64,000 bases of DNA, from contig NZ_FOMI01000002.1 of the NCBI RefSeq assembly GCF_900112595.1, forward strand, positions 140,690-204,689, given 5' to 3'. Below, one piece after another: positions 12,601 through 63,948 of this stretch. The notes beneath the pieces were generated by a model. That model saw only the letters and a program-made list of their open reading frames with translations, did no database searches and was not told the origin of the DNA. The translations under genes and the position numbers were made by a program. This DNA is from Algibacter pectinivorans. GTDB taxonomy: Bacteria; Bacteroidota; Bacteroidia; Flavobacteriales; Flavobacteriaceae. Position 1 is the first letter of the stretch, and each line of letters begins with the position of its first letter.

Positions 12601-12683
12601 TTCGAAGCTATTTCCTGCTATACGCTATATCTTTTTTTGCCATATATGGCAGCAAAAAAAGGATGCCGCTTCTATCAGGGCTA
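12601..12683. repeat. Dispersed intergenic element, copy i
   Basis: Directly after the binding-protein gene. Contains CTTTTTTTGC and GCAAAAAAAGG arms around the palindrome GCCATATATGGC (12639-12650), then GATGCCGCTTCTATCAGGGC. The GGATGCCGC/GCGGCATCC block and the CCATATATGG core recur at 31000-31110. It could fold into a strong hairpin and reduce read-through to the ATPase gene. Confidence 0.65.
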
Positions 12684-12779
12684 AATCATCAGCCAAGGCC
12701 GGTTTAAAATTAACCATTTGAAGAGTACAAAATAGAGCATAGAAAATTTAAAAAAAAATAAAAAATAAAAGAAAGTCAA

Positions 12780-60509: not shown

Positions 60510-61268
60510 ATGGTTAAAAACATCATTTCAGGAATTAAAGCATACTTCGGTGCTTTCAGTCTAATTTCAAAATTAAAACTCTGGAAATATTTTGCTATTC
60601 CTATGCTAATTAGCCTAATAACCGCAATTGCTGTTTTTGGTTCAGCTTACGGCTTATCGGATAATATTGGCGCATTCATATCAAAAATCTGGATTTGGGA
60701 TTGGGGTAAAGAAACATTTTCATCTATTAGTAATTTTATTGGTGGCTTAATTATCGTGGTTATTGGGCTCATTCTTTTTAAACACATCATTATGGCATTA
60801 TCAGCGCCATTTATGAGTCCCGTTTCCGAAAAAATTGAAGCTAATTTTACAGGTAATCCACCACATTCACATAGAAATACAAGCTTTTCAGAACAATTAT
60901 GGCGAGGTATTCGAATAAACATAAGGAACCTGGTTAAAGAACTATTGTTTACCATTCCTATTCTACTTTTAAAATTTATTCCTGTAGTTAATATATTTTC
61001 AACCATTTTACTCTTTATGCTACAAGCATATTATGCCGGTTTTGGTAATATGGATTATACGTTAGAGCGTCATTATAACTATAAGGATAGCCTACAATTT
61101 GTTAGCAAGCACAAAGGTTTAGCAATAGGTAACGGTATTGTTTTTATCCTGTTTTTATTAATTCCGGTAATTGGTGTAATTTTAGTGCTACCCTTATCGG
61201 TAACAGCAGCTTCAACAAAAACGGTAGAAGCACTTCAAATTAAAAACAAACCCATACATGCAGCTTAA
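60510..61268 (+). CDS. EI24-domain (CysZ-like) membrane protein
   Basis: A 252-residue protein with the EI24/CysZ membrane layout: an N-terminal helix, FSLISKLKLWKYFAIPMLIS, and a pair of long hydrophobic segments, ending with VIGVILVLPLSVTAAS. CysZ proteins import sulfate; EI24 members in flavobacteria have unknown substrates. The gene starts 2 bases after the potassium transporter gene and overlaps the acetyltransferase gene by 11 bases, so these are cotranscribed. Confidence 0.88.
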   Translation: MVKNIISGIKAYFGAFSLISKLKLWKYFAIPMLISLITAIAVFGSAYGLSDNIGAFISKIWIWDWGKETFSSISNFIGGLIIVVIGLILFKHIIMALSAPFMSPVSEKIEANFTGNPPHSHRNTSFSEQLWRGIRINIRNLVKELLFTIPILLLKFIPVVNIFSTILLFMLQAYYAGFGNMDYTLERHYNYKDSLQFVSKHKGLAIGNGIVFILFLLIPVIGVILVLPLSVTAASTKTVEALQIKNKPIHAA

Positions 61269-61800
61269 TTTTGCATTTTATCGCATTACACCTATTCACC
61301 AAAAAGATGGATGGTCTTTATGCAACTTTGCTGTGGCTAACGAAGACCGATTAAAACGCTATTTCCCAAAAACTTTAGAACAGAATTTAACACCCGATTT
61401 ATCAAATATTTTTGTTGCTAAAAAAGCAAAACATTTTGAATCCGAAGAAGAATTTTTATTCACTATTAAGGAAATTGAAACCCATAAATTAATTGGTTTA
61501 GTGTATATTAAAGAAGTTAATTGGACTACCAAACAAGGCGAATTCGCGTATTGCATCGACTACAATTTTGAAGGTAAAAGCATAATCACCGAAGCTGTAA
61601 AACAGTTATCAGATCACGCCTTTGAGAACTTAGGGTTACAAACGCTTCAAATTATAGCGCATAAAAGTAATATAGGTAGTTTAAAAGTTGCCAAAAACAA
61701 CAATTTTACACATATTAAAACATTAAAAAACGAACACACACCTCCAGGAGAACAACCTTTAGATATGGAGTTGTATGAGCTTTATAAAGAGATTGAATAA
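61258..61800 (+). CDS. GNAT-family N-acetyltransferase
   Basis: A 180-residue acetyltransferase of the RimJ/RimL type: GLVYIKEVNWTTKQGEFAYC, the acetyl-CoA loop region FEGKSIITEAVKQLSDHAFENLG and IIAHKSNIGSLKVAKNNNF, the usual signatures. Acceptor unknown, possibly a protein N-terminus or small amine. It overlaps the EI24 gene by 11 bases and is followed by REP palindromes of the RAYT element. Confidence 0.9.
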   Translation: MQLNFAFYRITPIHQKDGWSLCNFAVANEDRLKRYFPKTLEQNLTPDLSNIFVAKKAKHFESEEEFLFTIKEIETHKLIGLVYIKEVNWTTKQGEFAYCIDYNFEGKSIITEAVKQLSDHAFENLGLQTLQIIAHKSNIGSLKVAKNNNFTHIKTLKNEHTPPGEQPLDMELYELYKEIE

Positions 61801-61810
61801 ATGAAAGTAA

Positions 61811-61841
61811 GACCTGCGAGGTTTCCAAAACCTTGTAGGTC
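61811..61841. repeat. REP palindrome A
   Basis: GACCTGCGAGGTTT and AAAACCTTGTAGGTC are near-perfect inverse copies around a CC centre. Copy B differs by a single base, and both are followed by TC(T/A)TATCTAAAAA. Confidence 0.88.
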
Positions 61842-61894
61842 TCTTATCTAAAAAGTAAAAATGATTTAGTAACGAAAACCTGCGGAGTTTATTC

Positions 61895-61925
61895 GACCTG
61901 CGAGGTTTACAAAACCTTGTAGGTC
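61895..61925. repeat. REP palindrome B
   Basis: Same as copy A but with AC in the centre. A half copy (AACCTGCGGAGTTT) precedes it at 61877-61890. Lies 57 bases before the transposase start. Confidence 0.88.
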
Positions 61926-61982
61926 TCATATCTAAAAACACATTTACCAAGCATACTAAAACCCTATAGATTAAAAGTTACA

Positions 61983-63551
61983 ATGAAACTCGAAATATTA
62001 GAAAAAGGTAATTATTATCACATCTTTAATCGAGGTGTAAATGGCGAAACCATTTTTAAAAGTGATGATAATAAAATTTATTTTTTAAATCTCGTTCAAA
62101 AACACTTAGACCATAAAGCAGCTATTTTAGCCTACTGCTTAATGGATAATCATTTTCATTTCTTATTAGAAATTATTTCCGAAACTAAGGTAGCACATCA
62201 ATCTATTTCGAACCTGTTCAACGCCTATGCAAAAGCTTTTAATAAACAACAAAATAGAACAGGAAGTTTGTTCGAAAAACATTTCCGAAGAAAAAAAATA
62301 GATACCGAAGCTTATTTAAAAAATGTTATTCTATACATTCATACAAATCCTCAGCTTCATAAAATTAGTAATAATTACAAAAACTACGAGTTTTCATCAT
62401 TTCGCATTTACAATAATAACACCTTAAAAAATATAGTATCCATTGATAAATCTTATGTCATTCAACAGTTTAATGACTTAAATAATTTTATTTTTGCTCA
62501 TAATGAATATTTATCGTTACCTGATAATAATTTAGGCACAGACCTACAAGGTTTTAAAAACCTCGCAGGTCAAGAAACTTTTACCAAAAACGAGAAGCAA
62601 AACCAGCAAGATCTAAAAGACCTTGAAGGATTGAAAGGCAAACAATCAATGAAAGATAAATTCTACCAATACATACAAAACTTACAAGACAGCATAACCT
62701 CAAAACTAGAAGCTATTGATGGCAAAGCTAAATTTCAAGAAGACATTTGGAAACGACCAGAAGGTGGTGGCGGCCGCACGCGTGTTATTGAAAACGGTAA
62801 TGTTTTTGAAAAAGGAGGCGTTAACATTTCTGGTGTTCATGGTAAATTACCAGACAGCATGCAAAAATATTTTGGCGTAGAAGATGCCGATTTTTTTGCC
62901 TGCGGATTAAGTTTGGTTTTGCATCCTAAAAACCCAATGGTGCCAACCGTACATGCCAATTGGCGTTATTTTGAAATGTATGATAAAACAGGAAACATTG
63001 TAGACCAATGGTTTGGCGGTGGACAAGATTTAACGCCATATTACTTGTTTGAAGACGATGCTAAACACTTTCACCAAACCTGTAAAACAGCTTGCGATAA
63101 GCATAATCCAGAATTCTACCCAAAATACAAAGCACGTTGCGACGAATATTTTTATAATGCACACCGAAATGAAGGCCGAGGTTTAGGCGGTTTATTTTTC
63201 GATTATTGTAAAGCTACCGATGATATGAGTATGCAAAACTGGTACAATTTTGTAACCGAAGTTGGTAATAGTTTCCTAGAAGCTTATGTTCCTATTGTTG
63301 AAAAACGCAAAGATTTACCATATACAGATGCCCAACGCAATTGGCAAGAAATTCGTCGCGGACGCTATGTAGAGTTTAATTTAGTACACGATAAAGGCAC
63401 GCTTTTTGGCTTAAAAACTAACGGACGTATAGAAAGTATTTTAATGAGTTTACCACCGCATGTACAATGGGTTTACGACCACCATCCGGAAGCTGGGAGC
63501 GAAGAAGAAAAACTTATTAAAGTATTACAAAATCCCATAAACTGGGTTTAA
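61983..63551 (+). CDS. hemF: Single frame: RAYT transposase joined in frame to coproporphyrinogen-III oxidase HemF
   Basis: One uninterrupted 522-codon frame. Residues 1-about 182: Y1 transposase of the RAYT group. Residues about 183-222: linker, partly encoded by REP copy C (DLQGFKNLAGQ). Residues 223-522: complete oxygen-dependent coproporphyrinogen oxidase, with GGGRTRVIENGNVFEKGGVN, FACGLSLVLHPKNPMVPTVH, WFGGGQDLTPYYL, NEGRGLGGLFFDY and the C-terminal PPHVQWVY. HemF probably starts at the internal ATG 62649, giving the usual 300 residues, but a fusion from the upstream ATG is possible. HemF converts coproporphyrinogen III to protoporphyrinogen IX using O2. YchJ follows. Confidence 0.9.
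   Translation: MKLEILEKGNYYHIFNRGVNGETIFKSDDNKIYFLNLVQKHLDHKAAILAYCLMDNHFHFLLEIISETKVAHQSISNLFNAYAKAFNKQQNRTGSLFEKHFRRKKIDTEAYLKNVILYIHTNPQLHKISNNYKNYEFSSFRIYNNNTLKNIVSIDKSYVIQQFNDLNNFIFAHNEYLSLPDNNLGTDLQGFKNLAGQETFTKNEKQNQQDLKDLEGLKGKQSMKDKFYQYIQNLQDSITSKLEAIDGKAKFQEDIWKRPEGGGGRTRVIENGNVFEKGGVNISGVHGKLPDSMQKYFGVEDADFFACGLSLVLHPKNPMVPTVHANWRYFEMYDKTGNIVDQWFGGGQDLTPYYLFEDDAKHFHQTCKTACDKHNPEFYPKYKARCDEYFYNAHRNEGRGLGGLFFDYCKATDDMSMQNWYNFVTEVGNSFLEAYVPIVEKRKDLPYTDAQRNWQEIRRGRYVEFNLVHDKGTLFGLKTNGRIESILMSLPPHVQWVYDHHPEAGSEEEKLIKVLQNPINWV
62541..62571. repeat. REP palindrome C, inside the reading frame and inverted
   Basis: GACCTACAAGGTTTT and AAAACCTCGCAGGTC are the reverse complement of copies A/B apart from the centre. 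It is translated as DLQGFKNLAGQ within the RAYT-HemF frame. Confidence 0.88.
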
Positions 63552-63561
63552 AAACATTATT

Positions 63562-63948
63562 ATGGACTGTTACTGCGGAAGTTTAAAAACCTACTCGAAT
63601 TGCTGCCAAAAGGCTCATATAAACATAACTGATGCCAAAACCGCAGAGCAACTTATGCGCTCTAGATATGCGGCTTTTGTTAAAGCCGATGGCGATTATT
63701 TAATGGCAAGTCATCATGCTTCTACCCGACCAATAAAAGAAAAAGCGTCGATTGTAAAATGGGCAAAATATGTAGAATGGATAAAGCTAGAAGTTCTAGA
63801 AACAACAAAAGGCACCGAAACCGATACCCAAGGTACCGTAACCTTTCAAGCGTATTTTTATGAGAAAGGCAAAGTGGAAATCATTTACGAAAAATCGGCT
63901 TTTGTAAAAGAAAACAATACTTGGTTTTATTTAGGTTTGAGTAAATAA
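63562..63948 (+). CDS. YchJ-family protein
   Basis: A 128-residue protein with the N-terminal SEC-C-like metal knuckle CYCGSLKTYSNCCQ and the YchJ core AEQLMRSRYAAFVKADGDYLMASHH and TRPI with WAKYVEWIKLEVLET. The family is small and its role unknown; the zinc knuckle may bind a protein partner. It begins 10 bases after hemF and is convergent with the partial gene at the right edge. Confidence 0.9.
   Translation: MDCYCGSLKTYSNCCQKAHINITDAKTAEQLMRSRYAAFVKADGDYLMASHHASTRPIKEKASIVKWAKYVEWIKLEVLETTKGTETDTQGTVTFQAYFYEKGKVEIIYEKSAFVKENNTWFYLGLSK

Follow-up and report, generated by a model that had tools for sequence, protein, structure and literature searches.

The window analysed here, a stretch of 64,000 nucleotides from the genome of Algibacter pectinivorans, carries on its plus strand, in this order, an EI24/CysZ-like gene, a GNAT acetyltransferase gene, a single frame that joins a REP-associated transposase (RAYT, or TnpA-REP) to HemF, and a YchJ-like gene, which lies 3' of hemF at 63562-63948. 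The joined frame starts with an ATG at 61983, ends at 63551 and encodes 522 amino acids, a RAYT and then a complete HemF with no stop codon between them (542 codons from stop to stop). Such an open frame had been claimed in an earlier note on this DNA and is borne out; the span given there, 61811-63551, begins ahead of the coding part, which starts at 61983. The features of the locus are as follows:

61258-61800, plus strand: GNAT acetyltransferase gene (Acetyltransf_3, 5.3e-18)
61801-61807, plus strand: ATGAAAG, a direct repeat of the first 7 nt of hemF (62649-62655), seen in the sequence and adjoining the GNAT stop
61811-61841, plus strand: REP 1 (repeat match, hairpin fold)
61895-61925, plus strand: REP 2 (repeat match, hairpin fold)
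61983-62501, plus strand: RAYT (TnpA-REP) domain, residues 1-173, with HUH at 57-59 and Tyr118 in YIHTNP (profiles, alignment, fold match to 4er8)
62502-62648, plus strand: linker, residues 174-222, with pLDDT below 50 at residues 183-220 (alignment, structure model)
62541-62571, minus strand: REP 3, inverted, translated in the plus frame as DLQGFKNLAG (repeat match, translation)
62617-62632, plus strand: probable remnant of a second linker REP (75% alike)
62649-63551 (stop included), plus strand: HemF, oxygen-dependent coproporphyrinogen III oxidase, complete, residues 223-522, own ATG kept (profiles, fold match)

Both parts of the frame were recognised by profile and by fold. Pfam placed Coprogen_oxidas at residues 227-521 (450.7 bits), and the NCBIfam HemF profile scored 423.7 bits (cut-off 297) over positions 2-294 of 294, so that the oxidase is full-length; its first codon, Met223, lies at 62649 and its HemF motifs are intact, as had been claimed. 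The first part matched Y1_Tnp at residues 11-121 (25.3 bits, cut-off 23) and the NCBIfam profile REP_Tyr_transpos at 51.6-53.8 bits, under the cut-off of 80; the HUH motif reported earlier is present as NHFH at residues 56-59. A structure model of the fusion, built with 20 sequences, reached a mean pLDDT of 66.8 and a pTM of 0.49, with values mostly of 72-92 in the RAYT, about 30 in the linker and 34-87 in HemF. Foldseek matched the first part of this model to the REP-bound TnpA-REP 4er8 (E 1e-5) and the HemF part to coproporphyrinogen oxidases (best E 2e-20). HemN is also encoded in the window's genome (430 bits, cut-off 325), and HemF is thus not the sole such oxidase there.

The three REPs bracket the transposase part, as the earlier note had it, with two on the plus strand ahead of the RAYT and the inverted one behind it. 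No REP match arose in 100 shuffles of the sequence, against three at the locus, and each of the three folded into a hairpin on both strands (z -3.2 to -6.9). REP-like copies with at most three mismatches occur at eight other sites of the same genome, none of them within frames of at least 100 codons. The linker had been described as an inverted REP followed by a charged stretch; the REP is indeed in frame, but part of the stretch resembles a decayed second REP (62617-62632), which is better kept at about the same position in genomes G008, G163 and G238 and in locus L122. The tetranucleotide GT[AG]G was absent 5' of the foot of the three REPs, where, on the better-folding strand, the stems are preceded by GTA, ATTC and TCTT, and GTAG lies inside the 3' arm; according to the available sections of PMC6006769, the Bacteroidetes subclass 2.6 has no GT[AG]G consensus. 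The ATGAAAG repeat at both ends of the insert is also found in G009, with a related arrangement in G238, and was not seen in G008, G163 or G001. No match to a Bacteroidetes-type promoter was found inside the insert, and the nine in the window as a whole are about as many as expected by chance (mean 7.5).

Linkers of other fused loci hold repeats of their own. In L124 (Aequorivita viscosa), a linker of 106 residues contains the repeated REP-like peptides DLKGVVDEG and DLQGVVDEG, while in L082 (genome G199), L118, L119 and L121 the repeat is read in another frame (RPAR..KPARS), in one case with an asparagine run.

In total, 35 distinct frames joining a RAYT to HemF were found, nearly all of them placed in Flavobacteriaceae: 20 from genome searches and 15 of 19 named records, L102, L103, L106 and L132 having been left out as identical over the first 170 residues and L116, which meets a contig end, not being counted as fused. 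As the frame is open in 35 distinct loci, an assembly or sequencing error was ruled out. Within the genus of the window, a single fused frame occurs in four of ten genomes (the window's own, G009, G008 and G001), so that frame continuity extends to close relatives, and the remaining six lack a RAYT match. In G008 and G001, a hemB-like gene lies 3' of hemF, in place of the YchJ-like gene of the window. Across 397 genomes of the family, the whole frame is open in 17, and G243 has the two genes with stops between them. Of 64 RAYT matches in these genomes (E 1e-30), 17 belong to long frames (490-553 aa), every one of which includes HemF; the remaining 47 belong to frames of 184-240 aa. Fusion to many partners was considered and none was seen, all 17 long RAYT frames ending in HemF. 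Wide spread beyond the family was likewise rejected: among the matches listed from 395 genomes of the class, frames of more than 500 aa occurred only in G000 and G156, both members of the family, and G720 gave a partial match in a 379-aa frame. Among the best 80 of at least 510 named RAYT loci, the fusion is present in 19; hemF lies downstream on the same strand in 14 and is absent from the retrieved stretch in 46, and one locus ends with its contig. The fused named records include Aestuariivivens insulae, Hanstruepera flava, several Winogradskyella, two Flavivirga, an Algibacter, a Polaribacter MAG, Gelidibacter gilvus, two Aequorivita and Luteirhabdus pelagi.

In a tree of 96 RAYTs, all 35 fused members fell within one clade of 40 rows (95/85), and monophyly of the fused set was not rejected (AU 0.08). 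Four of the other five rows lie directly upstream of hemF (one Polaribacter and three Arenibacter), and the fifth is cut by a contig end. In a neighbouring group of 15, mostly Flavobacterium, hemF is nearby in ten, commonly lined up with hemD- and hemE-like genes (recognised from sequence, not by profile). The wider RAYT clade has hemF in the locus in 49 of 56 rows, against none of the 40 others; 20 of those 49 rows were recovered because of the fusion itself, and their exclusion gives 29 of 36. Upstream of the insert, the gene is a GNAT in 25 of the 35 fused loci, HemE-like in two and CysZ-like in two, and it gave no match to seven reference proteins in six, one of which is a contig start. 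Since the upstream gene varies, the constant of the insertion site is the start of hemF. A single RAYT lineage occupies a fixed site.

The catalytic residues of the fused RAYTs, chosen partly from the motif table in the available part of PMC6006769, are conserved: H57 in 34 of 35, and H59 and Y118 in all 35. Across the 14 closest pairs, dN/dS of the RAYT core ranged from 0.067 to 0.326, with 13 pairs at 0.067-0.19 and the highest value, 0.33, in G008/G163, a pair with few changes. The RAYT part is under purifying selection. In L086 (G165), the first HUH histidine is replaced by glutamine (NQFH), with the remainder of the RAYT, and the fusion, uninterrupted; this RAYT is possibly inactive and kept only as an extension of HemF.

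The best evidence for the fusion as a protein comes from what has become of the HemF start codon. At codon 1 of HemF, the 35 fused frames have ATG in 14, GTG in one, TTG in one and other codons in 19; 13 of these 19 are ATC or ATA, which indicates that the start was mostly lost through a codon change with the frame kept. In 12 of the 35, no ATG, GTG or TTG occurs from 25 codons before to 34 codons after the junction. By comparison, among 45 unfused or neighbouring HemF (the 33 unfused and 12 near loci kept in the HemF tree described below), ATG stands at codon 1 in 42 and one, three or four codons upstream in the other three. Fisher's test gave p = 2e-10 for 14/35 against 45/45 and p = 2e-7 against 42/45, both of which overstate the case because the rows are related. 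ATC and ATA can occasionally start translation, so the argument is strong without being final. In the 16 of 35 fused loci with a usual start at codon 1, the window with its ATG included, HemF alone could be made. The linkers, 17-106 codons long, are all open, which carries little weight because the set was defined by the open frame. We infer that the fused protein is probably made, with both domains working.

Among relatives of the genus that lack the insert, the GNAT stop of G003, G004 and G006 directly abuts the hemF ATG, and the empty site of G351, a genome of another genus, is also counted among such junctions; in G007 the GNAT stop and the hemF start overlap, and G002 and G005 have other sequence before hemF. 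As the hemF start lies at or over the upstream stop in several empty relatives, hemF is probably under coupled translation. Unfused neighbours are arranged in several ways: the RAYT stop overlaps the hemF start (ATGA) in G358, a gap of 5 nt separates them in G193, and REPs lie in the wider gaps (about 90-220 nt) of G243, G237, G169 and Arenibacter, while one Polaribacter shares the frame with hemF but has a stop in the REP loop and the hemF ATG kept. In the wider RAYT clade, some members are unfused and have 27-2069 nt from the RAYT stop to hemF, and coupling is therefore not obligatory. A deletion between the two 7-nt ATGAAAG copies of the window (61801-61807 and 62649-62655) would yield an empty junction like that of G004.

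The clearest sign of recent movement came from G008 and G163, which belong to different genera: their upstream genes are 78% and their hemF genes 80-84% identical, whereas their RAYTs are 96% identical, with dS 0.078 for the RAYT against 1.36 for hemF and the shift in identity located where GNAT ends and hemF begins. This is the only contrast that shows a clean recent transfer. A weaker one is found in G279/L112 (dS 0.48 against 1.04), and a recent transfer was not supported for G000/G238, its insert being about as diverged as its flanks. In G351, of the same genus as G163, the hemF site is empty and a RAYT with four internal stops lies elsewhere.

The history of the element was then compared with that of its flanks. 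A tree of HemF alone, which kept 34 of the 35 fused loci, 12 of the 14 near ones and 33 of the 36 unfused ones (the remainder having failed a motif or length filter), gave 24 changes in fused status against a shuffled mean of 25.7, but it is poorly resolved (5 of 76 branches starred); because its well-supported branches force only four changes, it was rejected as proof of mobility and set aside for a tree of the flanks (CysZ, GNAT and HemF). The latter was built from 44 chosen loci (14 of the 20 fused from genome searches, 12 of the 15 fused named records and 18 unfused), of which 40 were kept; L077, L041, L099 and L101, three of them unfused, were dropped. On this tree, element presence is not clustered: it requires 13 changes (shuffled mean 12.3), at least eight of them forced by well-supported branches, a result that shows scatter rather than a rate, as the loci were chosen and not random. 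The RAYT groupings G000/G009/G238 (AU 6e-65) and L104/L109 (AU 0.001) were rejected on the flank tree, and the four RAYTs of the genus do not form one clade (AU 7e-46), while the flank clade G008+G163 was not quite rejected (AU 0.056). The history of the element is thus unlike that of its flanks. Loss in G004 is suggested, since this genome groups with G009 (99/88) and holds REP copies and no RAYT, but a G000+G009 clade was not rejected (AU 0.064).

Taken together, these data make it probable that the 5' end of hemF is a recurrent site of a REP-RAYT-REP unit, which ties its reading frame to that of the gene. The unit would resemble a REPtron, with a stop-less RAYT gene between REPs that is read as an N-terminal domain of HemF, and it would come and go at one site, being acquired whole between genera and absent without a scar from close relatives. 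An insert that ends in the hemF frame, or in an ATGA overlap, would keep HemF made; inserts that keep hemF translated may have been favoured, and the transposase would in return be expressed together with hemF. As nonsense or frameshift mutations in the RAYT would also hit HemF, the RAYT would be protected from decay, and this frame-tying may be what maintains the unit. With HemN in the genome, the tie would matter mainly under air. Any benefit of the fusion is likewise presumed.

That the shared frame is a coincidence, with HemF made only from its own start and the fusion product not made or irrelevant, is improbable: unfused members exist and the HemF ATG is kept in 14 of the 35 fused loci, the window included, but a usual start is lost at codon 1 in 19 of them, as against an ATG at or near that position in 45 of 45 unfused loci. 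Somewhat less improbable, yet still unlikely, is an old domesticated gene, in which a single fusion of a RAYT to HemF was followed by the gain of a host function (for example a DNA-bound HemF, or a heme- or oxygen-linked processing of single-stranded DNA) and by vertical inheritance with many losses. The single RAYT clade, in which monophyly of the fused set is not rejected, and the purifying selection would fit such a history, as would the presence of the element in all ten rows of a Winogradskyella-rich clade of the flank tree, from which, however, G082 and G172 (unfused, and nearby on the HemF tree) were dropped. Against it are the dS of the G008/G163 insert, far under that of the flanks, the RAYTs of one genus that do not form one clade, the flank sisters L109 and L120 with RAYTs of different subclades, and the empty sites without scar. 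The earlier note had suggested a domesticated or read-through RAYT and did not foresee the recurrence of the fusion across many genera or the frequent loss of the HemF start codon; in its behaviour, the element is closer to a mobile unit tied to a fixed site than to a single gene of that kind.

Repeated occupation of the hemF start by the unit leaves room for more than one vehicle, and we infer that the unit is moved either by the RAYT acting on the REP hairpins or by recombination within its conserved ends. That alleles of the hemF region are exchanged between species by ordinary homologous recombination, with the RAYT not moving its own gene, is compatible with our preferred explanation and is a serious possibility, if one to which we give slightly less than an even chance. 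On either side, the shared G008/G163 block has its border in a conserved stretch (about 25-35 nt), formed by the GNAT end and the hemF start respectively, where recombination would give the same pattern without transposition; however, the upstream gene varies among fused loci while the hemF side is fixed, and in this one clear pair the borders lie at the ends of the element and not inside hemF. More tentatively still, we propose that the unit may be a transposable one which targets the start codon of a single heme gene and persists through frame-tying. Its stop-less transposase would be made only as the N-terminal part of HemF, could not be inactivated by ordinary mutation without loss of HemF, and would have a REP hairpin that serves both as DNA end and as protein linker.

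The fusion shares several properties with known elements. Inteins and homing introns are mobile elements that occupy a single position in a housekeeping gene and must therefore be lost precisely, and the RAYT is alike in being fixed at one such site; unlike an intein, it stays as an N-terminal extension of HemF, and no splicing (Hint) domain was found in the fusion, in which Pfam at E 0.001 gave only Y1_Tnp and Coprogen_oxidas. IS200/IS605 elements excise and insert precisely. Whereas they have several near-identical copies per genome, the window's genome has one RAYT match, at a fixed site and fused to a host gene. The two share the catalytic family and, by the abstract of PMC6006769, hairpin ends. 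With RAYTs/REPtrons (TnpAY1 class 2), the unit has in common the HUH-Y1 domain, the YIHxNP-like tyrosine motif, the flanking REPs, REPs elsewhere in the genome and the fold match to 4er8. REPtrons are, in the portions of the literature available, separate genes flanked by REPs, whereas here the RAYT gene is stop-less, one REP is coding and the gene is joined to one housekeeping gene; also unlike REPtrons as described in those portions, the RAYT-HemF unit seems to move whole to one site.

A transposase joined to the same housekeeping enzyme recurs here across many genera, which to our knowledge is unusual in bacteria. The earlier statement that no RAYT-HemF fusion has been described agrees with the titles and abstract openings searched, in which none was found. 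In the available text of PMC6006769, REPs inserted inside tnpA-REP genes are described for subclass 2.4, as is the discarding of a few long proteins that came from fusions or annotation errors in general, and a search of that main text for 'hem' and 'fused' returned nothing; in the available text of PMC2817692, a term search gave no mention of fusion, Bacteroidetes or coproporphyrinogen. How and why RAYTs are maintained is named as an open point in the consulted sections of PMC6006769, as is the lack of formal evidence for self-movement. The empty, coupled, fused and start-less states of this one chromosomal site form a natural series in which both maintenance and movement of RAYTs become testable.

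Two further observations concern the window and the fused HemF. A Flavo-1 RNA was found on the minus strand of the window at 12607-12686 (78.1 bits). In G163, G238, G156 and G165 (L073, L074, L080 and L086), the fused HemF carries in-frame inserts after the FEMY/FEIY motif, for example PSTPLRAGEPREI, and HemF parts with such inserts are 309-317 residues long, against 300-302; the inserts may be another palindromic repeat read in frame.
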